Shown in pieces: positions 11,385 to 64,000 of a stretch of DNA of 64,000 nucleotides. Every line of letters starts with the position of its first letter. The first letter of the stretch is position 1. The stretch covers positions 38,177,501 through 38,241,500 of the forward strand of contig OX485805.1 in the NCBI GenBank assembly GCA_950295325.1, written 5' to 3'. The stretch comes from Polytrichum commune. Lineage: Eukaryota; Streptophyta; Polytrichopsida; Polytrichales; Polytrichaceae. Under the pieces are notes generated by a model, which saw only the letters and a program-made list of their open reading frames with translations, searched no databases and was not told the DNA's origin. Both the position numbers and the translations under genes were made by a program.

Positions 11385-14162
11385 TCAAGCAACTTCTAAA
11401 TCAGAGAGGCCTTCAACTTCAGCACCCTCATCACCATTTTCCTCATCCTCTTCTTCATCCTCCTGGTCCTCTTCTTCATTCTCATCCAAAGGACCCAGGA
11501 CTCCTGCACCTGCCGCACTCTTTGAGAGCACTTCCTGAATAGCTTCAATTCCGGCCTCTGAGATCGAATTGCCATTCAAATTCAGTGCCTTGAAACCCTT
11601 CTTGTTGGCAACAGCTTGGGCAGCTGCCACAGCACCAATTCGGCCCAACTCGTTCACACACAGATCCAGCTCCCGCAGGTTCTCTGCTTCTTTGACAGCA
11701 TTTGAAATAGTGACTACGCCTTTATCCTTCAGCTCATTCTCCATCAAGTTTAGCCTTGTCAAAAATTTCAAAGATCGAATACAGGTAGCCAGAGCAGGTG
11801 CAACCGCCTGTGTTATCTCATTGCCCCCAAGCTCGAGTACCTCCAATTGTGAAGCATTCTCACTTAGGGCCTCCACTACTGCTAAAGCAGCCTCATCCTC
11901 TAAATTCAGGTCACTCAAATAGACCTCCCTCAAAGAGGTATGCAGCCTTAATGTCTTAGCCAATGCAAGACCAGCTTCAACCCCATACATATTATCCCGA
12001 AGATCAATTGACCTAAGGAACTTCCCATTCCGAAGAGATTCCATAAGAACAATAGCACCATCACTTCCTACCCTGCTTGATGACATTTGAAACCGTTCCA
12101 ATAGAGTTGCCTGCGAAACCACAGCCGCAAGTTCCTCTGCTCCCTTATCCCCGCTCATGTTGTTGTGAAAACAAAGTGTGCGAAGTTCCTTGGCTGATGG
12201 TAGAAGCTCAGCAATTGCATGAGCTGCCTCTTCTGATATACCATTGTTCATGAAGTAGAGTGAATGCAACGAGTCTTGTGAACTCAGTAGAGCTGAGAAT
12301 GCTCTAACACCCTTCTCACCCAAGGCATTGTCGGACAGATTTAAAGACTTAAGCCTGCTACCTCCTAAGGCCACTGAAATACTAGTCATTGCATTTAAAG
12401 CTTCTGCTTCTGGCCTTCCAGCAACAATATCAGCAAGATTCACATCCACAAGCCTGTGTTTAAGTGGTGCGAGAGCTCGAGCAGCCACTTCAGCAGACCC
12501 ATGTCCAAAACTCCAGTTGCTTAAGCAAACATGGGTAAAGGAGTTCCCTGGTGCAAGGAGTGGTCTGAGCAGCTCTTCAGCAGCTTCTTCTGTCAAAAAA
12601 GCTCTTGTGCCCCCTGACACATCAAAAGCGGTCTGCTCTCTACTGTCCACTGGACCTGCGTTGTCCCCATTAGCTTGCCTCTCACCTGCACAACAACAGA
12701 CAAAGGTTTTGACATTAGAAGCCCGATTCAGCTGAGACCCCAAGAGATCATAATGGCTGACAAAGAGAGTTTATTTGCATGTGCATTGAAGACCTGCTAA
12801 CGAGTGTCCAGAACACACCTCTGCCGCACTTCGTATACCAAGCCTTGAGTACAGCAGAAACGAGTCTGCTTAGAATAAGTATGAACAGATTGAGGATACC
12901 AAATCGAAATATAAAACCAAACATATCGCAAAGCAGAAACCCTTAAGTTTGCTTTTATCGTAAGTTTTGTGCTTTATGATACGCTACCAGAATAATAGCT
13001 ATTAAGTTGTGGATTCAAAGGCTTCCTTTTTCGTGTGACCAACTTCATAACATATGTAATCTACTCTATTCTGTCACACTGAAAACGATTGCCCTCTCAG
13101 ATTATATCTTCACATGCCACAATCAGAATGATACTCCAGGTTCTGAAGCCAACGTCTGCGAGCTTCCAGTGATATCTAAAGCATATGAACTTGAAGCGAC
13201 CATGACAGTACACATCCCTCAGCGGACTACCCAAGTGCCAGTTTCTACAGTAGCCTTCAGCTTTGACAAACAGCTCTAGCTATTGCAAATGGGCGCTGCC
13301 TGGAAGATGGCCAACAGACACCATAACCCTAATTAAAATTCTTTAGAGCTCCTGCTCATATTCAACGGCTTCCCAAATAACAAGCGAATTTCCCTCTTGG
13401 ATAATATCTTCCGATGCAATAATCAGAATAAAACTCGCAGGTTCTGAAGCCAAAGTCTACAGGCTTCCTGTAGTAGCTAAGGCACATGAACTTGACACGA
13501 CCATGCCAGTACATATCCCTCAGTGCACAACCAGAGTGCCAGTTTCAAAAGGAACCTGTGGGTGTGAAAGCAAACATTTCAGCTTTGACAAAGAGCTCTA
13601 GCTGTTGAAAATGGACGCTGCCTGGAAGATAGCCAACAGACACCGAAAACCTAATTCAAATCCCCTAGCTCCCACTAGCTTCGCAAAGCCAACACATGGA
13701 AAGAGACCAAATAACAATAAGCTTCTTACCACTATTGGTAGCCGTGCCATTGTCCCTGGCCCCACCTCTCCCAACCGTGGGCGTCACAGGCTCCCCATTC
13801 TCCCTGCTCTGGCTCCTCAGGGTCTCCAGCATCATCTTGCTCGCATGCCTAGCATACACCATGACGACCCCGCTCCCAGCGTCCTCCCCTCGCTGGTCAG
13901 CGGCTTGTGCTGCCCCGAAGGCCTCCTCCTCTATGCGCTTCGCATGGACCTCCGCATCCGCAAGCTCTATCCTCGGAAAGCTCTGCGACTCGAAGCAGGC
14001 GGACGACAGCTTAAGCGCCATCTTGTGAGCCACAGCCACTCGCGTCGCATCGCTTGGGGGCCACAGCTTGAAGAGTCCTGATGCTGCTGCCGCTGCCGCG
14101 TCCGCAGGTGCCGGAGCTTTGGTCATCGTGCCCAGGGGCTCCTCCCCCGACGAGTCTGCCAT
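11385..14162 (-). CDS. RanGAP1: Ran GTPase-activating protein (plant RanGAP, WPP + LRR)
   Basis: Two exons on the minus strand, 14162-13730 and 12685-11385, join in phase 1 at a Gly codon (donor GTAAGA, acceptor TTGTGCAG) to give 577 aa. Residues about 28-125 form the WPP domain (LFKLWPPSDATR at 30-41), which in plants anchors RanGAP to the nuclear envelope and the division plane. Residues about 180-540 hold RNI-type leucine-rich repeats with recurring LxxLxLxxNxL units, and an acidic Glu/Asp tail follows. This is the full plant layout. RanGAP stimulates GTP hydrolysis by Ran and so maintains the Ran gradient for nuclear transport and mitosis. The ATG at 14162 is the first in a long open frame and lies in a CpG-rich 5' region. 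Length is close to the Arabidopsis protein (about 535 aa). Confidence 0.95.
13017..13660. repeat. Tandem duplication of about 320 bp within the RanGAP intron
   Basis: Two degenerate direct copies (about 13017-13340 and 13360-13660) share 'caggttctgaagccaa', 'gtacacatccctcag' / 'gtacatatccctcag' and 'cgctgcctggaaga', offset by about 300-320 bp. The second copy ends some 70 bp from the donor of exon 1. Confidence 0.7.
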
Positions 14163-14560
14163 CCCTTCCCTACCTAGGGTTTGTCCTGAAGTTCGCTCAA
14201 CGCAGTGGTTTCCAGTGGTTCATCCGCACACGCGAATGGCACTCACTGTCCGAAGTCGCCGTCGATGGCGAGCGGCGAGACGAAGCCCCGAGGCCACGGA
14301 AAAAAGTGGAAACCTAATCTGAGAGGCAGGGTTTCAGAGGAGGAGAAGCGAAAAGAAACAGGGGTAGGCGGACAACGGAGGTTTGAAGAGGGTGGGGAGC
14401 GGGAGGGAAGCGCAGGGTTTAAACGCCGCGGCCGCCGGCGTCTGTTTGCGTCTGCCTCCTGCGGCCACGCTGGCTCTGGAGTGTGCCTCCTTCAAATCTC
14501 CATGGAGGGAGGGAGAAAGTGATGTGATGGATATCTGACCAAATGCTTTGAGTGCATGGG
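14163..14560 (-). promoter_or_regulatory. RanGAP 5' flank / probable promoter and 5' UTR
   Basis: GC- and CpG-rich sequence directly upstream of the RanGAP start codon, including the 'gccgcggccgccggcg' stretch near 14423, falls off sharply to AT-rich DNA after about 14540. No TATA box is assigned. Decayed copies of this region occur at 15.7-16.7 kb. Confidence 0.45.
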
Positions 14561-22322: not shown

Positions 22323-25300
22323 ATGGTGCGGGAGCGGCACCGAGTCTTCGTGAAATCGGGTGTGACCGCAGAGATCACCGAGGAAGTTTTGCAGCGCCAT
22401 TTCGCCAGCTATGGGAGTGTCATCGATGTTTACATCCCCAAGGTCATGCCCGCACAGACTCCCAAGGGCTTCGCTTACATCTCCTTCGACTGCGAGGAAT
22501 CGGTGCAACGAGCGGTAATAAATTAAATTCATCAACTCCCTCCTTTCTCTACCTTGAAAAAACTGCTCTTGGAGTTTCCTCCAGGTTTTTATTGGTACCT
22601 TGAAGGGAATGCCCGAAAATATGGTGGATTGCATTCACCGATGGAGGGGCATCATTTGGTGCTCAGAGTTCATAACTTTCTTGTGTCAGAGGATTTTCGT
22701 TTTTTTTTCCCTTTCCATTTTGGCTCTTGGAGAGTGTCATAAGTTAAGTTTGGGAATCCGAAGAAGTTTCTCCTGTTATGGAAAGGTGGTGTTTTATTTT
22801 TGTGTCCTGTAGCAGTTCCCAGGGTTTCCTTTGGCTTCTGCATTGAGAAGGTAGCGTTTTTGTTTGTTTGTTCCTTTTTCTTTTAATGTTGAGATTGACG
22901 TGAGGTTAAGTACACCCCGGCATTTTCCAGCTGATCATGAATCGAGAGACGATAATTTCCATCTAATTTTTCCTTCGAAGACATTCTGTGTAGTGAGAAG
23001 ATTGAGAAGAGGGACAGGGAGGCATTCGTATATAGTTGTTTGAAGAGCCTTCAGACATGTACCTGTTTTTGAGAATCTTTGTGATCTTGGATTCTGTTTT
23101 GAAACGCAATAGGAGATGACTGTTCAGAGAGGGCGTTGATTCATATTTGTGAGCTACCCTCGGTGTTCTACAGCAGCGCTTTAGAATTAAGGAAGCTCGA
23201 TTTTTCGCCCTGATACGAAATTCATGCCAAGAAGTAAGAGATACGAAACAATAACAAAGATGGGGATCAGAGAGCCTTCCTTACTCATAGTTTGCTTGAG
23301 AATCATACACGAGGAGATTTCTAGGGACTTAACGGATTTGAAGTAGTAAAGTGGAGGTTACCGGAGCAATCTCAGCTTCACTTTGGACAATTTGACAGTT
23401 TGACAATTTGAAACCTGTGCTCTTCATAGATGATAGAGATAGGTTTTGAAATCCTCAAATTTTGTTTCATAGACAACTCATTGCTTCTCTCATATTGCAT
23501 CCTTCATCGAAGAGTGCATGCATTGGTTCATGACAGTGGAGCAGTACATTGGAAGTAGTTCGGTGTTCCTGGCCAGGTAGAAACAGTCATCCTCAAACCT
23601 CATTTCTCCAATTCACAGGCTCTCACTATACCCCTGATCATTTCTCTCGTTGCAATTCTTCGTGTTCTGGTATTTTCTACAGCTTCAGCATGTTCTGTTA
23701 TCAGGTTGCTCTACCCGAAAGCAGTAGGATATTTTCAAAGTGTCTTACTGAACAGATTGATTGAGGTTATTAGAAAGTCATTTGGACTGACCTGAGAAGT
23801 GATAAGCACCTGTAACAGTAATCAACAATCTCCTTTTTCACTGTGTCAGGATACCTATAACAGAAACTCCGCCATTCCACATCAGAAGGTCTCAAAATTC
23901 ATCTGTAGTATAAGGAATGTTAGGTTCACCATTGGTTTGTCATAAGATTTCAAAGTGCACGCATCTGCTAATTTCTGGCCAGGAAATTGATCAAGGTTGC
24001 TTAGAAGTTCATTTGGACTGACCTGAGAAGTTCATAAGCACCTGTGTGAAACGATCTCCCTTTTCCCTGTATAAGGACACCTATGACAGAAACTCTTGCC
24101 ATTCGACACCGGAAGATCTCAAATCACTTCTGCAGTGTGAGGATAGTTAGGTTCACCATTGCTTTGTCACAAGCTTTCAAAGCACGCAGATCTATCTGCT
24201 AATGTCTGACCCTGGGAATGTGTGCTGCTGGTGATGTCATAACAGCTTAGACTCAGAGTCACATGACTTAGATGGGAAGCATTTCCCCGGGGATTGCACA
24301 CAGTGGGATATTTTCAAAGTGTTTCACTAAACAGATTGATTCAGGTTGTTAGTAGGTCATTAGAAGTTGTCAAGCACCTGTGTGCAACAATCTCCCATTT
24401 CCCTGTATCAGGACACTGATGACAGGAACTCTTGTCATTCGACACCAGAAGATCTCAAATCACTTCTGCAGTCTGAGGGAAGTTAGGTTTTTCATCGATT
24501 TGTCATAAGAGTTCAAAGCACACACATCTGTCTGCTAATGTCTGGCCATGGGATTGCGATGCTGGTGATGACATAACAGCTAGAGTCGGAGTCACATGAA
24601 ATAGATGGAAAGCATTTCCCCGTGGGGAGGGCGGAGCCAAGGCCATCCGAGAGAGGGGTATGGCAGCGAGAAGACAGCTACAGGCAAAGGGGCTATGAGC
24701 AGCAACAGCCATCTTACGTACCTTGGGGAGGGCCAGGCCCTCGTCCCGCAGGTCCATCCATGCACGGGCCGGTAACTCAAGGGGGACCGGCCCTGGATGT
24801 TGTTCCAGGGGAGACGCCATACATTCCAGATGCATCGTTTCTTCCAGAGGTCGAACACTATGGCTGGATGGGAGGACCGGGGCGAGGCGGTCCAGGAAGT
24901 GCGGCTATGAAGAGAAATGCTTGTCGAATATTTGTTGGAGGTGTTCCTGATGTTCTCTCCGAAGAGGATCTAAAACTTCATTTTGAAAAGTAAGTGTAAT
25001 GTTGTCTATCCATTCAGTGTTGCTGTTGTTGCTCCTTGTGCTTTGCATGATTTTTGAGCTTCGCGATGCCCTGATTTCACTCCATTGAATGTCCTTGTAA
25101 GCAAACCCTAGTTTCTTGAACTCAATGCTAGCCAATCTCACTGCCGAGCTTGTATGTCTGGAGATAGTGGAAGATGGAGTTTCTGCTGTGAATCTTTCAT
25201 TCGTCATCTTCAAGTGCTTGCATTGCTTTTTGGCTTATGTCAAGAACAGAAATCTGTGTTTGATTCTTTACTCGTGAGTGATTCATGACGCCCTGATTCA

Positions 25301-26592
25301 CATAATTGAATGTCCTTGCAAGCAAAACCATAGCTCCTTGAATCTAATGCTAGCCAACCTCACGGCCGAGCTTGATATATCTGCTGAGATAAATGAAAGA
25401 TAAGTTTGCGCTGTGAATCTTTCATTCCTCATGTTCGAATGCTTGAATTGGTTTTTTGGCTAATGTAGTGGAGAATATTGTGCTGGTCGGTAGAAATTTG
25501 TGTATGATTTGTTGCTCATGAGTGATTTGTGACACCCTGACTTTACTCAATTGAATGTCCTTGCAAGCAAACCCTAGTTCCTTGAACTCAAAGCTAGCCA
25601 ATTTCACGGTCAATCTTTATCTATCTCCTGAGATAATGGAAGATGTGTTTGTGCTGTGAATCTTCCATGAATCATCCTCGAGTGCTTGCATTAGTTTTTT
25701 TCAGCTTCTGTGAAGGACAGTAGTGTGCTGATTGGCTTAAATTTGTGCATGATTAGTTACTCATGTGTGATTCATGATGCCCTGACTTCACATAATTGAA
25801 TGTCTTTACAAGCAAACTCTAGTTCCTCAACCTCCAAGCTAGCCATCTCATGGTCGATCTTTGTCTATCTGCCGAGATAATGGAAGATGGATTTACACTG
25901 AGAATCTTCCATTAGTCATCTTTGAAAACTTGCATCCGTTTTATGGCTTGTGTGAAGGACAATGGTGTGCTGGTCGGCAGAAATTTGTATATTGAGTTTG
26001 TTAATCACGAGTGATTCATGACGCCGTGACTTTACTCAGTTGAATGCCCTTGCAAGCAAACCCTAGGTCTTTGAATTCAATGATAGCCAACCTCACGGCC
26101 AAGCTTTGTATATCTTTGGCCTGTAAATCATTTCATTAGTCATCTTTGGATATCTTTGGATATCTTTGGATGCTTGTATTGGTTTTGGCTTCTGTAAAAT
26201 TTGTGTACTGAGCCAGTCATGAGCGAGAACGGTGTGCGGAGAAGATGGCTAATGTGTATCGTTCTTTTGTTGCTTCCAGGTATGGGAAAGTGGAGGATGT
26301 GTATTTTCCGAAAGAGAAGGAAAGCAGGAAGAGGAGAGGGTTTTGCTACGTACGCTTCGATAATCCCAAAGCGGCAGATGCCGCGGCCGCACGTAGTCCA
26401 CGAACAATTGGAGGTAACGAGATAGGTGAAATAAAAATTGCTCAACCGCGGCCTGGGGAAGGCCCGCCATTAGAGTTTTCCCTGGAGAGGGACGGATATG
26501 GACCAGGCGGCTATGGTCCTCATAGGTTAGGTCCTCCGTATAACCCTAGGGCATTTGAAGGAAGGCCGCCTGTGAGGTTTCGCCCTTATTAG
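22323..26592 (+). CDS. Two-RRM RNA-binding protein (hnRNP-like)
   Basis: Three exons, 22323-22514, 24580-24989 and 26280-26592, give 915 nt and 304 aa. Introns are GT-AG, phase 0 and phase 2. RRM1 spans about residues 6-82 (RNP2 VFVKSG 8-13, RNP1 KGFAYISF 48-55); its last strand is encoded after the first intron (HEIDGKHFPVGRAEPRP). A Gly/Pro/Gln-rich linker follows. RRM2 covers about 179-255 (IFVGGV 181-186, RNP1 RGFCYVRF 220-227), and the tail is Gly/Pro/Arg/Tyr-rich, ending at Tyr-stop. This layout is typical of nuclear hnRNP-like RNA-binding proteins acting in RNA processing or transport; the target RNA cannot be read. The exon 2 start at 24580 is chosen because it completes RRM1 in frame after the AACAG acceptor. 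Both introns carry tandem repeats. Confidence 0.9.
23721..24619 (+). repeat. Three tandem units in RRM intron 1, running into exon 2
   Basis: Units of about 260-320 bp start near 23721, 23985 and 24299. They share 'ggatattttcaaagtgt', 'aagcacctgt', 'ctcaaa.tcacttctgcag', 'ctgctaatgtctg.cc'. The second unit ends with 'cataacagcttagactcagagtcacatga..tagatgggaagcatttcccc', which is a decayed copy of the exon 2 acceptor and first 40 bases of exon 2 found at the end of the third unit. Confidence 0.8.
25045..26230 (+). repeat. Five-unit tandem repeat (~245 bp) in RRM intron 2
   Basis: Units begin near 25045, 25268, 25512, 25758 and 26002, each with 'gtgattcatgacgccctgac', 'ttgaatgtccttgcaagcaaa', 'ctagccaa.ctcacgg', 'gagataatggaagatg' and 'gtgctggtcgg.agaaattt'. 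They are 75-85% alike by eye. The array fills most of the intron and stops about 50 bp before the exon 3 acceptor. Confidence 0.85.
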
Positions 26593-45903: not shown

Positions 45904-47528
45904 ATGGGGTGGCAGACAGGGTACCTGGATATAGTGCTGGTGCCGCTGGGAATGATGTTGTTGGTGATTTATCATTTGTATTTGTGGCACCGGGTTAGGC
46001 ATGCACCGCAGACGACTGTAATCGGAGTGAACCATCTCAACCGACAGGCGTGGGTGCGCAATATCATGAGTGTATGCCAATTCTGTCGCCCTCTCAAATG
46101 AAAAAATAAAAAATGAATGATCTCAATTTCTCTGTTTGTATGACGTTTCTTGCTCTTCAGTGTTTGGTCTCTTTGATGCCACCATTCATTCGAAGTGAGC
46201 TGCTTATCTTTTAAAAGTTTCACTTCTCACCTTAAAGTGACTTCGGAGTGAGTAAGTGAGCCACGGGCAACGAGGCTGTTTTTTATTTTAATGATGCAAT
46301 GGTGTAACATAGAAGGTGGCAATGTGAGATGGTTTAATAATGGGGTTACGAGAAGTGGAGGAAAAGAACGATCTCCAATTTGAATGTCAGTTCATTTAAC
46401 CATGTGAACCACGGAAGGAAACGCCATAGGAAACGCCATTTGCAAGTGAGAACCATCATGCGGATAGTTAGCGTGTAGCAAGTAGGAAAATGACTGTTAA
46501 GCAGGTCAGTCACTGTAAATCTTGGATGCTTGAGAATGGAGGGTGAATGTGCAGAAGGTTAGAAACAAACAGATGCACTCTATATGGTTACAATAGGTTT
46601 TGGAATATTTTTGATTTGGAAATTCCGTAGATATCTTGAGTTGCATGGTTTCCAAGTGCTCTTTGAAAAGCTAATTCAACGAGAACATTGTACTCGGACC
46701 ACTCTGAGTTCCAAACCCACCGAAATGGAGGGAATAGGTGGGACTGCCTGAAGTCATTGTTGTTTAGCACTCTTTCGAGGGCATGAGTACAATTGGGTGC
46801 AAACTGCAGCAATTCTGTTTGTAGGAGTAAGAGACACTCAAAGGGTGACAGTCATTAATAGTGAGACTGAGCAAGTAGACACAAGTGTAGTGCTTTTTCG
46901 AATGTGGCTAAAGATGCTAGGTGGTGTTTTTTGAGAGCAAATGTGTGATTGGAATGTGCAGGATAGCGTAAAGAACGGTGTGCTGGCTGTGCAAACTCTT
47001 CGCAACAGCATCATGGCATCGACATTACTTGCTTCCACATCCATCACCTTAAGCTCCATCATCGGGGCGCTTGTGAGCAGTACCACGAGTAGTACGAAAA
47101 GACCGCTACAGGCATTCATTTATGGAGAAACTGGGGGCATCATCACCACCCTGAAATATTTATGCCTCTTGATGTGCTTCCTCTTTGCCTTTGTCTGTCA
47201 TGTGCAGTCAATTCGTTATTCGAGCCATGCAAGTTTCCTGCTCAGCATTCCCATAGGAGACAACGCTCCAGGATTGACTCCAGATTATGTCAACGACTTC
47301 ATTTACAGGAGCCAGAACTTCTTTTCATTAGGATTACGTGGTTACTACTTCTCTTTCCCTCTGTTGCTCTGGATTTTCGGCCCAATCCCCATGTTTGTCT
47401 GTTCACTCGTCATGGTGGCTTTGCTAAACACATTGGATACTGCCAGAGACTTTGCACTGACCTTTGAAATTGAAAAGATCCGGAAGCATCACGATGATGT
47501 TCAACTTCATGAAATGCTGGCAGTGTGA
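45904..47528 (+). CDS. DUF599 family membrane protein
   Basis: Two exons, 45904-46071 and 46962-47528 (TGA), join in phase 0 (donor GTATGC, acceptor ATGTGCAG) to give 244 aa. The start is the first in-frame ATG (MGWQTGYLDIVLVPLGMM). An N-terminal hydrophobic helix (about 8-26) is followed by the family hallmark HRVRHAPQTTVIG and by KNGVLAVQTLRNSIMASTLL across the junction. Three more hydrophobic segments follow (around IITTLKYLCLLMCFLFAFV and YFSFPLLLWIFGPIPMFV). Length and layout fit the DUF599 family of bacteria and plants, whose role is not known. The ACGT-motif cluster upstream is the only regulatory hint. Confidence 0.9.
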
Positions 47529-54240: not shown

Positions 54241-56141
54241 TTAGGAGGAGAAGAGGTTCTAATCTAAAGGAGGAGGTTAGTACGTGGGCCCAGATTTGAG
54301 AAGATGAGAGTATCCACTTGGCACATACGAAACCCTACCCCATCATATTCCACCTACATTTGGGCTAGTTTGTCTTCATTCCTACTATAATCTTGTGAGC
54401 GAGTGGCCTACATGGAAACTCACGCTTAATATTGTGGGCACTTCTAGCTCCACAAACAAGTTTGCCCATTGGATCAATTGGGCATTTGCCTCATCCAGTT
54501 AGCAATCGTGAGTCTCACATATTGCAATTTGAAAATCCAAATTTGAGGTGGAGTGTAAAAGTTAAATGAAGTTAAAGTGGTTTTATTTTTTTCTCTCACA
54601 ATGGCTAGCTTTGAACTTGGAGTGCTTAATATATTATGTGCACATAGTACTAGATAACAATCCCCTTATGTTGGGGGGGGGGGGGATCTTCATAAGTGAG
54701 TAACCACGTACAACCTAACATGAGTGTAAGAAGGGTATTATTTGAGGCATTAGCGTACATAGTATATATATGTATTAATTTTCTCTAGTATGTACATTCA
54801 AAATGGCAATTAACTTTTACAATAAAGGTAGATGTACAAAAGGGGGCCCTAAGTCTTAGAGAATTTTTTAAGAATAGGGTGCGAGCATAGTAGAGTGGAC
54901 ATCTCTTGATCCTTGCACATGTTTAAGTGAAAGTGATTCAAAAAAATATACTAAATTTTAGTTTTGTGAAAAAAATCATAATTATTTAAAAAAAATATTG
55001 ATCTACAAAGCCAAAGAATTTATGTTGAAACAATTACAAAAAAATCTACCTATCTAAAAAGTCAGTGCAAGTGGTGTTCTTGAACAAGTAATTATTAAAA
55101 ATATGTTTAAAATGATAAAATTACATTAAATTTACAATTTTCTTTTAAAATATTTTATTTTGACCTCAAGTGTATAATGAGTTCAAGGAATAAAAAAAAT
55201 TGTTCAAAATAACAAAGGTTGTTAACAATATGTCCAAAACTAGATCTAGCCATTTGCTTTTGAGTAGTACTTTTAGTGATAAGTTTTGAAATTCTCATCT
55301 TGATAGTCTATATTTGAGTACCTAACACAATAACAGAGGGCATCACTAAAAAAATGCAGTGTAAACAACACTTTGCACTACTTTTAGGCATTTGACCCAC
55401 AAAAAATATGATTTTAGTATACTGGAGCATTTTTTTATGTATACTTGAGCATGCTTGCTCCCACACCAATACAATCATCTCCTCTTAAATTTTTTGTCAA
55501 TGTCTATTACTTGCGGATCTAGAACTTGTTGTCAAATTTCTTATAATTTTTGTAGCACTTTGATTTGCTCTAAATAAAATAAGTTCAAGGTGTGTACTTA
55601 CGCTTTGCAAATCGGCTCCACCTTCATATGCTTTGTATTTTTCATTGATGTTGTCATCGCTTTCTTCTTCTTCTTCTTTCTTTCTTTTGCATGTAGAATT
55701 TTTTTGCGATATCATTGACTACATCTACATCAAAGTCAATTTCTTTCTCCTATTTTTTGAGTCCATTTCACAAATATCTGCACTCCTCTGTGTTTATGCT
55801 AAAACAACATATTTGTGTACTATTTGTGGGATTTTTTTTCTCATGCTACTTGCTCGCTCTCAAACTCTCCTTGTTGTAATATACAATATTTTTTTATCAT
55901 TTTCATCTTCTACCATTCAATTGATAACTACTCTCATGATATTTTTCGTCTCGCAATTGTGATGCTAAAATCTAAGCATTATACAACCCACAATATATCA
56001 CGCTCACATAAAGTTTAATGCATACTTCTACATATAAGTATTGAATTTTATCTACATTTTGGTATATTAAGTTAATTAAAATACTTATTTCAAATCATTT
56101 TGACAACGTAGAATTTGCTTGTTATTTTGTGATCTACACCC
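54241..56141. other. AT-rich intergenic stretch, no recognised gene
   Basis: Very AT-rich from about 54880 to 56100 with a 13-base G run at 54673-54685. The Phe-rich frame near 55633-55962 is low-complexity TTC/TTT sequence, not a recognisable protein. Confidence 0.5.
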
Positions 56142-56248
56142 TGTCGTGTAAACTAAGATCGTTAAACACAACAGATCGAGTGTCGGCGTCAACATCAATT
56201 AGCAAAATAAAATAGCAAACTAAAATGCTAAACAACCACCTCTTCAAG
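56141..56248. repeat. 108-bp direct repeat, copy 1
   Basis: Identical by eye to 56684-56791, starting ctgtcgtgtaaactaagatc and ending cacctcttcaag on the + strand. The two copies are 543 bp apart, in direct orientation. Confidence 0.9.
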
Positions 56249-56682
56249 ATGAGGGTTTCTCTCTCCAAGCTTAAGAAACTAAAATGTCTCCTTACAAAGC
56301 TTAAGAAACTCTAAAATTCACACACAAGAGTCAAGCTATCTCTCACTCCACGAAGGGAGAATCCAAGAGTGCAAGTGGTGGAGAAAGAATGCAAAGGCTT
56401 TACTCATAATCTACTACACCATAGCCATGAGAAAGCAACAACAAGCTCTCTCTCTCTCTCAAAACACACTCACAAGACTTGACTTGACAACAATGGCAAG
56501 TCAAGAGGCCTTCCTCTCCATACAACCCCAATCCTATGTGGAGTTCATCCATGGAGGGGATGAACAACTAACTAGGACTCCCAATGGAATCCGTTACTCA
56601 TCCTAACACACATGGACTCCTAGTGGAGTCCATTTACTCCTAAATTGACGTGACTTAGCCCCCGATATCACCTCACGTGACA
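56142..56682 (-). repeat. Candidate 3' LTR (541 bp, TGTC...GACA)
   Basis: Read on the minus strand, this segment starts TGTCACGTGAGG and ends TTTACACGACA, giving TGTC/GACA short inverted ends, common for Ty3/gypsy LTRs. Its last 107 bp recur at 56685-56791. An alternative is that the LTR starts at about 56781, just after a purine-rich stretch (GTGGGGGCACTTGAAGAGG, 56800-56782), and ends at the same place, about 640 bp. The 5' LTR needed to decide lies outside. Confidence 0.45.
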
Positions 56683-56683
56683 G

Positions 56684-56791
56684 CTGTCGTGTAAACTAAG
56701 ATCGTTAAACACAACAGATCGAGTGTCGGCGTCAACATCAATTAGCAAAATAAAATAGCAAACTAAAATGCTAAACAACCACCTCTTCAAG
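56684..56791. repeat. 108-bp direct repeat, copy 2
   Basis: Exact second copy of 56141-56248, sitting between the candidate LTR and the polypurine-like stretch at 56782-56806. Confidence 0.9.
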
Positions 56792-57116: not shown

Positions 57117-57539
57117 TCAATCATGACCATTAACGGCCACGGAATGAGAGGCTTTCCGACAACGAGGACAAACCCAATTGCCAGAAGGAAGAGTCAAAAG
57201 GGGAGGTGTCAAACATGCCATGTGCCATCCACGTTGACATTGGTCGCATAATAACATTGTTGCAGCTCCTATCTTCTCTCCACAAACATAACAAGGCAGA
57301 CCCTGTGGTACAACCGCCAACTCGGGATGCACAGAGTCGTCGATGGGAAGGTGACATGGAGCACAATTCTTTGAATGCTCACGACATTCCCGTCCATCCT
57401 TGCCTTCAAGCAATAATATACCACTTGGCAAAACATCTTTTACCCGCAAAATCGTGTGCCCAGCCTTGACATCCAATGTCGTAGGCGCCTCCCGTTGCAA
57501 GTAAACATAATCCCCCTTGGAAAATCTACGAACCTGAGG
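57117..57539 (-). CDS. Retrotransposon integrase C-terminal part with PHD finger
   Basis: This is the same frame as the integrase, opened again after a TGA at 57542-57540. It begins PQVRRFSKGDYVYLQ, the start of a Ty3-type integrase C-terminal beta domain, showing it continues the integrase. It then carries a PHD finger (about 57293-57153) with the full Cys4-His-Cys3 set: CYVC, CDQC, WHMAC, CPRC, in the arrangement LLCDQCQRGWHMACL. It ends at TGA 57119-57117. PHD fingers usually bind the H3 tail, methylated or not at K4. Here it takes the place that chromodomains hold in chromoviruses, so a role in choosing integration sites is inferred. Confidence 0.8.
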   Translation of the reverse strand, partial: PQVRRFSKGDYVYLQREAPTTLDVKAGHTILRVKDVLPSGILLLEGKDGRECREHSKNCAPCHLPIDDSVHPELAVVPQGLPCYVCGEKIGAATMLLCDQCQRGWHMACLTPPLLTLPSGNWVCPRCRKASHSVAVNGHD

Positions 57540-58628
57540 TCAATAAGCTCCACTGCGGATCCGAGCATACCGTAATGTATCACGATGTTGAGCAATATTT
57601 AAGTTCTCCATAGCCATAGGCATGGCCTTTTGGAAGAACGCTGCTCGGTTATGAAGACATTGAGCCCAAACATCTGGATCATCCAAGTTTACCACGGGAG
57701 CCAATTTCTCTCGCACCGAGCTAGGTAAAATTGGTTCCCGTCCATACAAGAGTTGGTAAGGACTATAGGATGCCAAAGATGCTTGCCTGCTGAAACGATA
57801 ACCCATTGCTATCCATGGTAACATCAAGTCCCAATCGCGATGGTTGTCATGAAGCAATCCATACTTCCGCAAACCGCGCTTAACTGTCTGAACAACTCGT
57901 TCAGCTAAGCCATCTGCCTCAGGGTGATCTCTAGAAGTTGTCCGATGATCAATCAAAGCCTTGGTACACAAAGCCTCGAAAGATCCAAGGAATTCTCTCC
58001 CTTGATCCGTCAACACCTCTGCAGGTGCTCCAAACCGTGCCAAAACTCGATCAAGAAATGCCATAGCCGCCAATTCTGAGGAATTTTGGGGAAGAGCCAC
58101 GAGTTCAATCCACTTACTAAAATGCTCCACCATCACAAGCACATACTTGGAACCACGTGGAGTGATAGTAAGCGGTCCGGCAAAATCCAAAGACCAACGA
58201 TATCCCAAGCCCATAATAGGTAAAGGCTGAAGTTGAGGTGACAAAGTATTAAAACTTGACCTGACCCGGTCACATACTTCACACCGAGAAACATAAGTGG
58301 CAACCTGTTGATACATACCAGTCCACCAATATTGGTTGCGCAACATAGAGTGCGTCCTTCGCACTCCAAAATGTCCAAGCTCCTCGTGCACTTGCCGTAC
58401 CAAAGAAGCTCTTTGATCTGGTCTTGGAACGATGCGCCTCGTTCCGTTCGGCCACACACGAAATAACAAGTTGTTTGCCCAACGAAACCTTGTTATCTGG
58501 TGACTAACTCTATCTCGCTCCATAGCAGATAGTCCAAGAGGAAATATTCCTTGTTGAAGTTTGTACAAGACCGTCTGGTCTTCCCACACATCACTAACAA
58601 CGAGAGATTTATCAACCTCCTCATCCTG
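57540..58628 (-). CDS. Retrotransposon integrase (zinc-binding and catalytic core)
   Basis: The frame follows a TAA at 58631-58629 and runs to TGA 57542-57540. It has the HHCC zinc site (VHEELGHFG ... CEVC) and the DDE core: Asp in WSLDFAGP, Asp in LTDQGREF, and Glu 35 residues further in DGLAERVVQ. The frame after the last core helix leads directly into the PHD-bearing segment. It inserts the element's cDNA into the host chromosome. The TGA replaces what is probably a CGA Arg codon in the junction SGAY-PQVRRF. Confidence 0.85.
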   Translation of the reverse strand, partial: QDEEVDKSLVVSDVWEDQTVLYKLQQGIFPLGLSAMERDRVSHQITRFRWANNLLFRVWPNGTRRIVPRPDQRASLVRQVHEELGHFGVRRTHSMLRNQYWWTGMYQQVATYVSRCEVCDRVRSSFNTLSPQLQPLPIMGLGYRWSLDFAGPLTITPRGSKYVLVMVEHFSKWIELVALPQNSSELAAMAFLDRVLARFGAPAEVLTDQGREFLGSFEALCTKALIDHRTTSRDHPEADGLAERVVQTVKRGLRKYGLLHDNHRDWDLMLPWIAMGYRFSRQASLASYSPYQLLYGREPILPSSVREKLAPVVNLDDPDVWAQCLHNRAAFFQKAMPMAMENLNIAQHRDTLRYARIRSGAY

Positions 58629-60260
58629 TTATTCTACAAGGATCTCAGCAGCCAATCCCGACATCATTGTGAGATATGTGGCAGCATGCCAACCCGACAC
58701 TGCCTCACGATCACAATCTCCATGCCACCTGGCTCCAGTTAAATCCTCATCTGAAGGACTTGGATTGCGAGACAATCCGTCTGCATCCAAGTTGGCAATT
58801 CCTGCTCGGTGAACAACTTCAAAATCATATTCCTGAAGTAACAATGCCCACCTAGCAAGTTTCCCGGTGAGCTTATCTGATTCCATAAGCCATTTTAAAG
58901 GCTGATGATCAGTCACCAAAGTAAACTTTTGCCCATACAAATAAGGTCGAAAATATGCAATGGCCCAAACGGCCGCCAAGGCCTCGCCTTCATAAGAAGA
59001 ATAATTAGATTCAGCACTATTATTGCTTCTAGATGCATAAGCCACCACATATTCCTTTCCCTCTTCATCTTTCTGTGTCAATACCGCTCCCAATCCCACT
59101 GCACTCCAATCCGTGTGCAATTGAAAAGCTCTAGACACATCCGGGCGTCGAAGCACTGGCGCTGAACCGAGCCTCTGCTTCAATGTATCAAATGCCTGTT
59201 GTTGTTCCCGACTCCAAATCCATGGTTGGTCTTTCCCCGTGAGAATGGTAAGGGGTTTGGCAATCAAACTAAAGTTTTTGACAAACCTCCTATAATAATT
59301 TGCCAATCCTAGAAATGCACGAAGCCGTAGTACATCACTAGGTGCGGGAATTTTGTGCAAATCATCCACCTTCGCCTGTTGCACACCAAGACCGCCAGGA
59401 ACAATCATGTGGCCTAAATAGGGCAATTGATCATGGAAAAACTTACATTTTCCATGATGTAAACGGAGTCCCCACCGTTGAAGTCGTTCAAATACCGCTT
59501 GCAAATGTCTCACATGATCCTGTGGATTATTACTAAAGATGATAACATCATCAATGTAACATCTAGCAAACGGCAAACCAGCCAATAATTGGTCCATCAC
59601 CCGCTGAAATTCAGCTGGTGCATTCTTGAGACCAAATGGCAGAAATTTCCAATGATAAAGTTGATCCTTGTCATCTTTATCAATTCCCCAAAATGCGGTC
59701 TTCACCCGATCACCCAACAACAAAGGTAATTGGTGATAACCAGACCTCAAATCCAAAGTGCTGAAGATTCTAGAAAATCCTAGTGCATCAAACAACTCCT
59801 CCGGCATCGGCATTGGATATCGATCCGACTTGGTCTTGCGGTTGACTGGACGATAATCACCACACATCCGTTTTTCCGTCCAGTTGCCAAAGATATCATT
59901 CTTTGACGGCATAACCGTGGCACAAGCATACTCTCCATTGGAGAGTTCAATCAATTCCGCTGCCAATAACTCTTGACATCGAGTTTGAACACCCAACCTT
60001 TCAGAGGTACTAAGTCTGTATGGCCGTCTGAAAATAGGGTGGTCGTCCTCGAGTTGAATACGAACAGGTTTACCTTTATATCCTTCAAGATCATGAAGAC
60101 TAAAGGCAAAACAATTACGGTAAGAGCGAATAAATGCCCGTACCTTTCGTGCTTCGGCACCAGTAAGCTTTGGACCCACTTCAATTGGCCAATCGTCAAA
60201 CTCCGTAGTTTCCTTCTTCATAGAAGGATTGCCAATTGGTGCCAGCACAGCCTGTGATTG
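58629..60260 (-). CDS. Retrotransposon reverse transcriptase and RNase H
   Basis: The frame opens directly after the TAG at 60263-60261 and ends at TAA 58631-58629. RT motifs in order are MCGDYRPVNRKT, FSTLDLRSGYHQL, FLPFGLKNAPAEFQ and the catalytic YIDDVIIFSN (about 59558). The RNase H domain follows with Asp in LHTDWS, Glu in YEGEALA, Asp in VTDHQPL and Asp in NLDADGLSR. No internal ATG near the start is needed if it is made as part of a polyprotein. It lies in the same frame as the methyltransferase upstream and integrase downstream. Confidence 0.9.
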   Translation of the reverse strand, partial: QSQAVLAPIGNPSMKKETTEFDDWPIEVGPKLTGAEARKVRAFIRSYRNCFAFSLHDLEGYKGKPVRIQLEDDHPIFRRPYRLSTSERLGVQTRCQELLAAELIELSNGEYACATVMPSKNDIFGNWTEKRMCGDYRPVNRKTKSDRYPMPMPEELFDALGFSRIFSTLDLRSGYHQLPLLLGDRVKTAFWGIDKDDKDQLYHWKFLPFGLKNAPAEFQRVMDQLLAGLPFARCYIDDVIIFSNNPQDHVRHLQAVFERLQRWGLRLHHGKCKFFHDQLPYLGHMIVPGGLGVQQAKVDDLHKIPAPSDVLRLRAFLGLANYYRRFVKNFSLIAKPLTILTGKDQPWIWSREQQQAFDTLKQRLGSAPVLRRPDVSRAFQLHTDWSAVGLGAVLTQKDEEGKEYVVAYASRSNNSAESNYSSYEGEALAAVWAIAYFRPYLYGQKFTLVTDHQPLKWLMESDKLTGKLARWALLLQEYDFEVVHRAGIANLDADGLSRNPSPSDEDLTGARWHGDCDREAVSGWHAATYLTMMSGLAAEILVE

Positions 60261-61690
60261 CTAGTCCGTGGAGAGGGCAACACCTTTGCCCCCATCATCT
60301 GCACTTGAATCCAAATGCGTATCCTCTCCACTACAATCAGTTTGTGTAGCTAAATAGCTATCCATATATGAAGTATCACCAAGAAGTAGAAGTGGAAACA
60401 TTTTATGGGCCTCCAACTTCCCAAACTCTTGGGCCAAAGCCGAAAAACCACGTTGGACTCGAAGCTCTTCCGCAACATGAAGTTTCAAAGGAAATAATTC
60501 CTCGGTGTCATTGACCTCAATGTGATCCTTGGATTGCGGCTCCATTGCCCCCTGACCAATGTTCTCTGCTCTCAGAGTAAGCAATCGGTCATCCATACGT
60601 TGTTGAGCAGCAAGACAAATTCCAATTACCCACACAATGCTATTAAGATCCATAGCTTGCCCCAATAGGAAACGTCTCTGACCTTCCTGAAGCCCGTGAG
60701 CAGCCGTGGTACCTGTAAGAAAACCCATGGCGCGTTCCCGCTCATCTGCCGTAGGCTCCTCATAAGTTTGGGATTTTGAATCCCAAACCATGCCAGGTCC
60801 ACGAGATCGAAATGCAAAAGACTGTGGATATGTCACAAAAGTAGGTAGTGCACCTCTCGGAATTCCCACCTTGTTAATTAATGCAAATGGCAAGGTGTCA
60901 TCCTTGGTAACTGCCAAGGAAACACGATGATCATTTAAAATGTCATCCACCTTGCGATCCATAAGGCGGGGAATGCGGGCAATCGCCGCTGACAGCACCC
61001 GAGGTGATACCAAGTTGGTCCAAAACCAACGAGGCCGATGAGCAAAGGATCCCAAAGATGCAGCATCCAGAAATGTTGGAGTACCCAAAATTTGGTTAAT
61101 GTACTCACCATCCTTCACCACTTTGTGTCGGGTATCACCCAATAATGGTACATTTTCGAAAATGTACCCTGGCGGAGTTGATTGGTGGGTAAACCACCAT
61201 TGCGTCAATCGCATCAAATCCGCAAACAAACTAGACCTAGGATCATCCAATCCCTGGCCAGTTCCTGCCCGCGAATGGCCTTGACAAAGCCATCCTGCAA
61301 TAATCAAATCCACGTGGCCCAACCTTCTCAAATCCTCATCACTAATCATAGTGACATCTTGAGGAAGTTGACCACAACATCCATGAATGGCAGAGGCTGA
61401 CAATTGTGCGGGGTATCTCAACAACAATTGTTGGATGTGGTGTCGGACGGCTCTGTTGGCTGCATACCCATTGTCCACATGAATATATCGCCAAACTGTA
61501 ATTTCAGCTTCCAACACTGCCGCCAAACCTGTGCCAATGCCTCCAAAGATCTCCACAAGGACAATACCTTCAGGTGATGGTTGCCAACGAATGAGTTGAG
61601 CAAAAGAAAATGAGGATGAAGTTGGGGATGCCTCTCCAAGCTCCAAATCCGCTACAATGGTCGGATAACTCCTTAGGAGTTCGCCATGGT
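60261..61690 (-). CDS. Retrotransposon-encoded DNMT3-like C5-cytosine methyltransferase
   Basis: The domain (about 61556-60627) has the C5-methyltransferase motifs in standard order: I VEIFGGIGTG; IV AGWLCQGHSRAG with the catalytic Cys-Gln at 61286-61281; VI YIFENVP; VIII AHRPRWFWTN; IX ERERAMGF; X FLLGQAMDLNS. Motifs VIII-X resemble DNMT3 (AHRARYFWGN, EMERVFGF) more than CMT, MET1 or the rearranged DRM order. It transfers methyl from SAM to cytosine C5. Motif IV has Leu where Pro is nearly invariant, so this copy may be weak or dead. About 120 residues of linker follow before TAG at 60263-60261. The frame is also open upstream to at least 61814, overlapping Gag-protease; real coding probably starts near 61660-61690 after a +1 shift. 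Confidence 0.85.
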
Positions 61691-64000
61691 GGAGGTGGAT
61701 CCTTGAAATGTCGAGCAGGAATTTGAAAAGATGGTAAAAATTGTTGTTCTGCCGCATTACAAGTGTAGTCCATTGTTTCCTCCAATAAAACTGGAGCACA
61801 AGGCAAATCTGCAACTAAACCGCTGCAACCAAACATTGCCTCCGCAACCATAGTCATAGCAGTGGCTGCAAATGTGACAGGAATAAATACCTTCCTGCCA
61901 TCTCCAATGGACCATCCCGGTCTAATCCACGCCTCTTCCGTCCAATTATCCAAACCAAAGCCAAGTGGGTAAAGAGCTTGCTGACCAACAAGTATATTAT
62001 AGTTGGTAGCATTAGTAACAACACACTTCATTGACAAATGAGTGTAAGTAGGCCCTGCCCCCACATGAAAAATCAAACGTAGAGGTGCCTTGGTGTAACC
62101 TGTTGCACGTTCAGTGCCCCCTACTGAAGTCACAATAGTAAATGGACAAGGATCCAAGCTTGCTGGCGTCAATTCAAGATTGCCAGCAAGTCCTTTGCCA
62201 ATCATAACCGGTTGAGCACCGGAATCCATCATAACTCTCAGTGGTGTAGCACGGATAGTGGGCATATCCGTGCGTGAAACGACAAACAACGATTTGTCGT
62301 TCATCAGCCGTACAACTCCAGGTTGCAAATTATGCCGTTCGCGAGCAGGCCTTGCAGAAATGTCTGCAAGATATGCCGCTCCCGACGCATAATTCGAAAA
62401 TAACGTATCCACTGCTGAAATTGATGCTGGAGGAATATCAGTTTGCTTACCAAAAGCAATGATCGCCGCATCCGCAAGACCCGCTCGCAAATTGGCTAAG
62501 TCCTTCACCTCCTCAGCCACAGGTACGTCAACCACAGCTTGGGATACTTGAAGGGATGGCAAATCCGCCTTACCTTCTAACATTCTCCCAGCTAAATGAA
62601 AAACTGCAGCAGGCTTGAAATCCGAAGCCATAAACTCCGAACCCGAGAAAATTGGCATATGGAGAATTTTATATGCCAATGCCTGCGTAACATCCTTCGA
62701 GATGGAATCCCCATCTCTCAAAGGCACAGGGTTTTTAGCCCCAACAACAGTGGTGTCTACCAATCCAAATGAAAGAGGTAAACGTGTTTGACCAATTTGA
62801 TCAGCTGGTCCGGCATGGCGAGGATGTAGCACCTCGTTGCTACCACCACTCGTGGAAGCCACCGCATCTGCCAATGTTTGTGAGCGAGTAGAAGCCGCCG
62901 CCACCACCTCTCCAGCTGCTCCAAACATATACATGTCCGAACCCGAAGTGCCACCACCCACATGCGGCTCAGAAATTTGAGCAAAAGATGCAGAAGATTT
63001 GAGCTTTTGCTCAAGCTCTGCCACCTTAGCCTCAAGACTCTGCTCTCTTGGAGACTTTCCAGTGACATAACTGGCAGGCCGCATCTCAGGATGAAGTAGG
63101 AAACAATGATCCACATCGTGATTAGTGCCACCACAATGGCTACATTTCAATTGTCTCTTCTTAGAATTGTCCCCTGCCCTTACTGGTTCCATCTTTTGTT
63201 TTAATTTTCCCAAAGGCTGAGTTTTCTTCTTCTTAGGACAATTGGGATCATTCTTCGAATGACCAGCTTCTCCACAACCCCAACAATGCAAAATCTTTTG
63301 GTCCTTGACGGGTTGAGTCTCAGCTAAACTACTAGTAGCTGTGACAATTCTTCTTGGTTTCGGACTCTCTGTCATCCAAGATACCATATCCGTGGCATCA
63401 TGTTGGCAAAGAGCCCGATCACATTTCTCAACCACGGCAAACGCTTGTGCAAGCGTAGCTCGGCCCTCGTAGTCGAGGATAATCCGAGGTGATGCCAACT
63501 CAAGTAGCCGCTTGTCAATCTTAGACAAAAATATTTTAACAAGCTGACTCTCAGCAAAAACACCTCCCGACTCCACAGCAAATCGCGCGAGTCGCGTATA
63601 CATGGTCCGTGGAGTATCATCCTTCTCTCGGCGGAAATCCTGGATGCGCTGCATCTGGTCTCGCCGAAACCCACCATACTCCACTTCCAAATGTGCGACA
63701 AATTCAGTAAGGGGATTAAATGGAGGTGGTGGACCAACAGCCGTCAATGCTGCCTGTGTAGCACGTGCCATCCGTGAAAGGGTAGCCGTGCTACTGCTAG
63801 CCACCAATGGCCCAAATGCCAGTTCTTGGTCCTCAGACTCCTCCGGTGGATCCTCCTCCTTTAAGGTGGGTGGAGCTAAGGTGGCAATCGCCCCATCTTT
63901 AAGGGCTGAAATAAGTTCAACCCGGGCCTCCCAATACTGCTCCACCTCCCGAAGTTGTCGTTGATGACCCTCTGTCCATCGTTCGTAAGTTTGGAGTGCC
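61570..64000 (-). CDS. Retrotransposon Gag and aspartic protease (5' partial)
   Basis: The frame is open from the window edge to a stop at 61570. A retrotransposon Gag region (LTEFVAHLEVEYGGFRRDQ ... LSKIDKRLLELASPRI) lies at about 63710-63480. Two zinc knuckles follow: CWGCGEAGHSKNDPNC (63285-63238, last spacing X6 rather than X4) and the standard CSHCGGTNHDVDHC (63144-63103). A roughly 250-residue linker comes next, then the protease with VMMDSGAQPVMIG (catalytic Asp at 62226) and NILVGQQALYPLGF. The last about 40 codons overlap the methyltransferase frame and look non-conserved, so the true junction is a +1 shift before them or an insertion. Gag packages RNA; the protease cleaves the polyprotein. 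Confidence 0.85.
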   Translation of the reverse strand, partial: ALQTYERWTEGHQRQLREVEQYWEARVELISALKDGAIATLAPPTLKEEDPPEESEDQELAFGPLVASSSTATLSRMARATQAALTAVGPPPPFNPLTEFVAHLEVEYGGFRRDQMQRIQDFRREKDDTPRTMYTRLARFAVESGGVFAESQLVKIFLSKIDKRLLELASPRIILDYEGRATLAQAFAVVEKCDRALCQHDATDMVSWMTESPKPRRIVTATSSLAETQPVKDQKILHCWGCGEAGHSKNDPNCPKKKKTQPLGKLKQKMEPVRAGDNSKKRQLKCSHCGGTNHDVDHCFLLHPEMRPASYVTGKSPREQSLEAKVAELEQKLKSSASFAQISEPHVGGGTSGSDMYMFGAAGEVVAAASTRSQTLADAVASTSGGSNEVLHPRHAGPADQIGQTRLPLSFGLVDTTVVGAKNPVPLRDGDSISKDVTQALAYKILHMPIFSGSEFMASDFKPAAVFHLAGRMLEGKADLPSLQVSQAVVDVPVAEEVKDLANLRAGLADAAIIAFGKQTDIPPASISAVDTLFSNYASGAAYLADISARPARERHNLQPGVVRLMNDKSLFVVSRTDMPTIRATPLRVMMDSGAQPVMIGKGLAGNLELTPASLDPCPFTIVTSVGGTERATGYTKAPLRLIFHVGAGPTYTHLSMKCVVTNATNYNILVGQQALYPLGFGLDNWTEEAWIRPGWSIGDGRKVFIPVTFAATAMTMVAEAMFGCSGLVADLPCAPVLLEETMDYTCNAAEQQFLPSFQIPARHFKDPPPPWRTPKELSDHCSGFGAWRGIPNFILIFFCSTHSLATIT

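Follow-up and report, generated by a model that had tools for sequence, protein, structure and literature searches.

On the minus strand of the window, the whole 64,000-nt stretch of DNA analysed here, a DNMT3-type C5-methyltransferase stretch (60261-61814) has the protease of a Ty3/gypsy retrotransposon on one side and its reverse transcriptase on the other. This is probably a degraded copy of a recently active moss family of Ty3/gypsy type, in which a first open reading frame (ORF1) encodes Gag, protease (PR) and a DNMT3-like DNA methyltransferase (DNMT), a leaky UAG follows, a second frame (ORF2) encodes reverse transcriptase (RT), RNase H (RH), integrase (IN) and a PHD finger, and the enzyme would act on the element's own cDNA. 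The DNA itself gives the anatomy, a lower bound on copy number, the leaky-stop motif, split repeats with 4-bp target duplications, the catalytic residues, a methyltransferase clade shared with liverworts and long-term purifying selection; self-methylation of the cDNA is the likely function suggested by these sequences. The host is a moss, since the exons of its own multi-exon DNMT3 (locus L068) share 76–77% identity with their counterparts in Physcomitrium and Ceratodon, both mosses, which agrees with the land-plant host proposed in the original prediction. Retrotransposon-borne DNMTs, so far described mainly for algae, are hereby extended to land plants.

Three genome searches combined gave at least 242 distinct DNMT places in the 407.8-Mb assembly, where the window spans C3:38177501-38241500 (123, 128 and 131 scored matches out of 353, 568 and 294 candidates), of which three read as host-gene exons, one of a DRM and two DNMT3-like, the others not having been inspected one by one. 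A DNMT was located ≤3.5 kb upstream and on the same strand of 110 of the 125 scored RT copies, which were drawn from 1642 candidates by a scoring that would not reveal distant DNMT-free gypsy elements. The expectation of a multi-copy Ty3/gypsy element with a DNMT3-like enzyme between PR and RT was thus borne out, and a single chance insertion, with the domain absent from other copies, is ruled out by this genome-wide repetition. The 15 RT copies with no DNMT match within that distance, several of which still hold the end of ORF1 at the border pattern described below, may equally well reflect partial loss or limits of the scoring as a genuine lack of the domain. Eighteen copies were fetched for detail and were chosen for long ORF1 frames, which biases them against broken DNMTs. 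They represent subfamily A (L011–L019 and L022, 10 copies), to which the window copy belongs, and subfamily B (L020, L021 and L023–L028, 8 copies). Identity between A and B is 88% of residues in RT, 62–64% in DNMT and about 53% in gag-PR, which indicates a far higher rate of change in gag and DNMT than in RT, with synonymous sites near saturation throughout.

ORF1 is a single open frame of 1356–1386 aa in the 10 A copies and 1360–1372 aa in the 8 B copies, and the DNMT forms its C-terminal domain in all 18. The predicted placement between PR and RT stands, with the change that in the fetched copies the DNMT ends the Gag-PR ORF and is not the start of Pol. ORF2 (RT-RH-IN-PHD, 1045–1048 aa) was intact in 12/18 copies and shares the frame of ORF1 in 11 of these 12, with L028 as the exception. 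The border between the two reads UAG CAA YYA in 17/18 fetched copies as well as in the window, and in both subfamilies; in L028, ORF1 stops at a UAA slightly earlier and the UAG CAA YYA letters follow out of frame. A search with the subfamily A version of this border (CAA UCA fixed, stop codon left free) gave 110 genome matches, and among the 100 listed the stop position was UAG in 98, UAA in two and a sense codon in none. Placed straight after the stop, CAR-YYA alone directs readthrough in tobacco mosaic virus (PMC2194720; here and below, papers are cited from the portions of their text that were available). Its presence at a conserved UAG border therefore predicts that DNMT is made at Gag level and RT at readthrough level, which we regard as the most likely arrangement. 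Among 35 long relatives, 21 end 58–118 aa past the DNMT without RT, four are cut at or inside the DNMT, and 10 continue into Pol. Two of these 10 (P0077 and P0079) run from Gag through integrase without a stop, and the remainder are three metagenome ORFs (P0074, P0081, P0083) and five Marchantia or Sphagnum gene models, which may be spliced.

The 5′ end of the window element lies outside the window. In the order of the element, its parts and lesions are:

62311..63999, minus strand: Gag part of the Gag-PR ORF, running past the window end (ORF 61570-63999, 5′ open; the same ORF is present in the 18 fetched copies)
63285-63259 and 63144-63118, minus strand: CCHC-like knuckles in Gag, named by eye
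61831..62310, minus strand: aspartic protease region, with a DSGA motif at 62232-62206
61635..61677, minus strand: frame change between PR and DNMT, a lesion of the window copy (one frame here in the 18 fetched copies)
60525..61607, minus strand: DNMT3-like C5-methyltransferase domain, with motif IV LCQ here and PCQ in 18/18 fetched copies
60255..60263, minus strand: putative leaky-stop motif UAG CAA UCA (UAG CAR YYA type) at the border of ORF1 (Gag-PR-DNMT) and ORF2
58629..60260, minus strand: reverse transcriptase and RNase H, Ty3 type (Pfam PF00078, PF17917, PF17919)
58629..58631, minus strand: stop codon between RH and IN, a lesion of the window copy (ORF2 is open here in 12/18 fetched copies)
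57540..58628, minus strand: integrase, H2C2 zinc finger and core (PF17921, PF00665)
57540..57542, minus strand: stop codon between IN and its C-terminal part, a lesion of the window copy by comparison with the fetched copies
57153..57293, minus strand: PHD finger at the integrase C-terminus (PF00628, 3.6e-11)
56685..56791, minus strand: repeat B1, 107 nt, identical to B2
56683..56684, minus strand: GC spacer, forming with its flanks the palindrome GACAGCTGTC
56244..56682, minus strand: repeat A2, 439 nt, 99.3% identical to A1 over 440 columns
56142..56248, minus strand: repeat B2, the 3′ end of the element, overlapping A2 by CTTGA
56138..56141, minus strand: target-site duplication GGGT (a second GGGT precedes A1 outside the window)
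contig C3:38243137-38243574, beyond the window: repeat A1, partner of A2

Gag, PR, RT, RNase H and integrase follow in the Ty3/gypsy order with a Ty3-like RT, the Pfam match of the protease region (gag-asp_proteas/Asp_protease_2) being weak and below cut-off (E 0.024–0.026). The RT/RNase H region matched the PDB entries 4ol8 (1.4e-75) and 7q5b (Ty3-G Gag-Pol, 3.5e-75), and the PDB chains nearest to the PHD finger were those of PHF12, CHD4, lid (KDM5 type), PHF21A and ATXR5. The motif IV proline of the window copy was lost through a C>T change, with the remaining C5-methyltransferase motifs present. Judged by its frame break, two stop codons and PCQ to LCQ change, the window copy is dead; the family is not. 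In its 5′ untranslated region the window copy carries a tandem array (L010 1997-2431, contig C3, beyond the window) with units of ~144 bp that are 80–87% alike.

Self-methylation could proceed as follows. Readthrough of the leaky UAG would leave the DNMT at Gag level, in excess over RT, and its fusion to Gag would carry it into the particle. There, or in the pre-integration complex, the enzyme would methylate cytosines of the newly made element DNA, so that the new copy would join the genome already marked, and the PHD finger of the integrase may help to pick the chromatin site. As the original prediction proposed, such marking might hide the element or restrain its copy number.

Selection on the enzyme differs between comparisons. 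Between A and B, dN/dS was 0.149 for the DNMT core and 0.050 for RT, with synonymous sites near saturation, and within B the DNMT core is constrained (omega 0.38; N 66, S 76, p 8e-9); all omega expectations were corrected for a C>T-rich spectrum, and tests on ORF2 used 7 A and 5 B copies. Constraint was also detected within A for RT (omega 0.24), RH (0.26), IN (0.31), PR (0.33) and gag (0.47), while IN within B gave omega 0.54 without detectable constraint (p 0.22, 5 copies). The DNMT has therefore been retained through long periods of evolution, but no constraint on it is seen in the recent burst of A. Among single-copy changes in A, 153/233 were C>T or G>A, with 31 in the reverse direction. 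Such decay in all sequence contexts is as expected of methylated, silenced copies, whichever enzyme is responsible.

Several observations weigh against self-methylation and the arrangement that would serve it. The DNMT core shows no detectable constraint within A, the subfamily of the window copy (omega 0.94; N 42, S 18, p 0.89), and differs in this from RT, RH and IN of A taken together (Fisher p 0.0008). The DNMT tail likewise lacks detectable constraint (omega 1.08 in A and 1.33 in B), and so does the PHD region, where changes are few (0.79, p 0.72 in A; 0.73, p 0.71 in B). The Pfam listings of the distant relatives P0077 and P0079 contain no PHD, and in both of these the DNMT runs on into RT with no intervening stop, which shows that Gag-level dosage does not hold for all members. 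The C>T decay is alike in CG, CHG and CHH, and does not point to the element's own enzyme. Finally, KnitGypsy-Dnmt3 of Klebsormidium nitens, the closest enzyme to have been tested, gave no methylation in yeast, a result which its authors called inconclusive (PMC5890265).

The DNMT omega of 0.94 in A, set against 0.24–0.31 for RT, RH and IN, would also be explained if the DNMT, an accessory domain of value to the family in the distant past, were now a passenger in subfamily A, where loss of its function costs recent copies nothing, and the window copy, with its motif IV proline gone, fits such a passenger. We consider this unlikely, as PCQ, ENV and HRPR are kept in 10/10 fetched A copies (chosen, as stated, for long ORF1 frames), subfamily B remains constrained, A changes common to more than one copy have an omega of 0.54 (N 8, S 6), and a DNMT still precedes most scored RT copies (110/125). 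Moreover, if the enzyme acts in trans, selection on single copies would be weak anyway.

The catalytic residues are retained in the fetched copies. Motifs I, IV, VI, VIII, IX and X are in canonical, unrearranged order in 18/18 fetched copies, with FGGIGTG, PCQG, ENV and HRPR unchanged in all 18 and the motif X sequence GQAMDL in 15/18 (single changes in the other three). Fold comparison assigned the element enzyme to the DNMT3 type and not to DNMT2. The position of DNMT3A R836, which we take to be the CpG-reading residue, aligns to a gap in 40/40 transposon-type and 15/15 plant DNMT3 rows, so that this residue gives no pointer to the target chosen. This gap, and the fusion of the DNMT to a Gag-PR with CCHC-like knuckles, would suit a nucleic-acid-binding or RNA-modifying part of Gag, or a modifier of host DNA that does not act on the element's cDNA. 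Such a role is less likely again than that of a passenger, since fold and catalytic residues are those of DNMT3-type DNA C5 enzymes, and an active site would not be expected to persist in a purely structural role.

For the descent of the enzyme a pool of 85 rows was selected, consisting of 38 of 85 database relatives, 14 plant DNMT3s, 18 metagenome rows, 8 moss copies, the window copy, 2 host genes and 4 references; rows termed transposon-type are matches of the relative searches, and only some of these proteins also carry Gag, PR or RT. Ten rows were dropped before a quick tree of 75 rows (2 Sphagnum fragments, 3 short transposon-type rows, 3 distant metagenome rows and 2 near-identical moss copies), and 15 more before a careful IQ-TREE analysis of 60 rows (fragments, including those of Klebsormidium and Closterium, long branches and near-copies). 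In the careful tree 30 transposon-type DNMTs, including those of Marchantia and Calypogeia, form one clade (100/100), and the 15 plant DNMT3s, including the host moss's own, form another (99/99). Both lie within a DNMT3 superclade (99/98), which excludes DNMT1, DNMT2 and M.HhaI, so the enzyme did not fall outside the C5-methyltransferases, as it might have done had the original prediction been wrong. Grouping outside DNMT3 is ruled out by both trees. The quick tree placed Klebsormidium and Closterium proteins and the doubtful metagenome row P0048 within the transposon-type clade (SH-aLRT 100). The K. nitens protein P0044, whose gene model is partial and whose branch is long, was inside this 40-row clade (SH-aLRT 100), and was omitted from the careful tree. 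RT and DNMT trees of nine rows were concordant at well supported nodes. Relatives were found in Marchantia, Calypogeia, Sphagnum, Klebsormidium and Closterium, and when IMG/VR was searched using the DNMT alignment, 15 loci matched, their best segments being 30–53% identical.

The simplest reading of these trees is one old capture by an old family, with the DNMT carried by these elements since before the split of liverworts and mosses. Its association with them may go back to the charophyte grade, provided that P0044 and P0049, both partial and on long branches, hold. The host enzymes are distinct in other respects as well: PpDNMT3b and MpDNMT3a/b share the DNMT3 superclade with the element enzyme, but are host genes of the separate plant clade with PF11926, a domain listed for plant DNMT3s, not listed for the transposon-type matches and not found in the window ORF. 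The host DRM (L063), also a host gene, has the swapped motif order that defines DRM (VI-X before I-IV), whereas the element enzyme runs from I to X. The suggestion that the DNMT is a remnant or recent capture of host DNMT3, which the shared superclade might favour, is highly improbable. A separate DNMT3 and a DRM are present in the host genome, the transposon-type clade with its liverwort relatives stands apart from the plant DNMT3s, PF11926 is not listed for the transposon-type matches, and the domain recurs at about 240 places, in one open frame with Gag-PR in 18/18 fetched copies. A recent capture from host DNMT3 is contradicted; an old capture may have occurred, the branch joining the transposon clade to a nearest DNMT3 group having low support (59/7).

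The ends of the element were compared in the window copy and 17 fetched copies, 18 in all, for which both flanks were available (those of L026 were left out). In 15/18 the repeats follow the order A1-ORFs-B1-GC-A2-B2 with the shared junction GACA-GC-TGTCACG, and three copies have a short form with A1 and one B only, without A2 and B2. The two equal long terminal repeats of an LTR element are thus absent, as the 5′ end is A1 alone and the 3′ end is B1-GC-A2-B2 in the 15, and the other three carry A1 and a single B. Identical 4-bp target duplications flank 18/18 copies (15 split-repeat and 3 short), consistent with integrase-type insertion. A1 and A2 are ≥99.1% identical in 13/14 aligned copies (94.6% in L017), and this near-identity indicates that most of the sampled insertions are recent. 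The junction GACA-GC-TGTC and the three short copies are compatible with a circular intermediate, which may exist, although the permuted order expected from a circle cut at the inner junction was seen in 0/18 copies, and the short copies could alternatively result from B1 x B2 recombination after insertion. No primer binding site or polypurine tract was seen by eye beside A1/A2, where no systematic scan was made.

PAT and Ngaro elements of the DIRS order have the repeat order A1-ORFs-B1-A2-B2 and a tyrosine recombinase, and are not known to have an integrase or target duplications. The moss element resembles them in its split direct repeats, with the PAT/DIRS repeat order in 15/18 copies, and is unlike them in its DDE-type integrase (PF00665) and the 4-bp target duplications in 18/18. 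In the window itself, a DDE-type integrase extended by a PHD finger (57153-57293) occurs alongside DIRS-like split direct repeats (56142-56791). The pairing of such an integrase with split direct repeats in one element calls for an explanation of its own. A narrow literature search, mostly without subscription papers and preprints, gave in the text available no report of a gypsy element that has both an integrase and split direct repeats.

Retrotransposon DNMTs were described in 2018 by de Mendoza and colleagues for Klebsormidium and dinoflagellates (PMC5890265), and have been denied for land plants (PMC6338049). KnitGypsy-Dnmt3 combines, like the moss element, Ty3/gypsy domains with an unrearranged Dnmt3-type domain; its copies are intronless and under purifying selection, with DIRS-like repeats according to the legend of Fig. 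4 (PMC5890265). The partial K. nitens protein P0044 groups with the moss enzymes in the quick tree, the Klebsormidium element being known here by protein and not by DNA. Differences are that the Klebsormidium Dnmt3 is described as lying inside the Pol ORF (PMC5890265), whereas the moss DNMT ends the Gag-PR ORF before the putative leaky UAG, and that moss copies carry an integrase PHD finger, while the words PHD, protease, readthrough, moss, liverwort and Marchantia are absent from the main text of that paper. SymbioDIRS-Dnmt3 of dinoflagellates is likewise a retrotransposon-borne Dnmt3-type enzyme, and methylates CG in yeast, but belongs to the DIRS class and represents an independent capture (PMC5890265), being set apart here by description only. 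The UAG between in-frame ORFs with a CAR-YYA context resembles tobamovirus-type and murine leukaemia virus (MuLV) gag-UAG-pol (PMC2194720, PMC5009743). MuLV Gag-Pol arises by readthrough that needs a pseudoknot (PMC2194720, PMC5009743), whereas the moss case is judged from the short motif alone and has its DNMT before the stop. The available portions of PMC9516144, PMC10952607 and PMC6453930 make no mention of retrotransposon DNMTs, and in a literature search with subscription papers and preprints mostly outside its scope, the text available held no report of DNMT-bearing retrotransposons in mosses or liverworts, and none of a plant retrotransposon that uses CAR-YYA readthrough.

The role of DNMTs in retrotransposons is described as unclear in the 2018 paper (PMC5890265), and it is puzzling that a transposon should encode the kind of enzyme by which it is silenced. 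A wider scheme, tentative and on balance doubtful, would see one old streptophyte family from charophyte algae to mosses and liverworts, gypsy-like with split direct repeats and perhaps with a circular form whose B-GC-A junction is cut by the DDE integrase; the moss family would package DNMT3 with Gag via the leaky stop, and new copies would be methylated before PHD-chosen insertion, as a self-silencing lifestyle. Self-methylation is made testable in culture by the young copies, by the existence of another subfamily under constraint and by the predicted leaky-stop dosage, and relatives are annotated in the liverwort model Marchantia polymorpha (Mp_4g09160, Mp_8g17980), for which genetics and methylome methods exist.

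Elsewhere in the window, host gene pieces with a WPP domain and leucine-rich repeats are located at 11385-14219 (minus strand), presumably as in plant RanGAP, and a host exon with DUF599 (PF04654, 2.2e-54) at 46935-47528 (plus strand). Tandem repeats, arrayed at 227-bp and 244-bp periods, occupy 23756-24182 and 25247-26115, and near them an ORF at 24577-24993 (plus strand) resembles the start of an RNA-binding (RRM) protein, a label given by eye.
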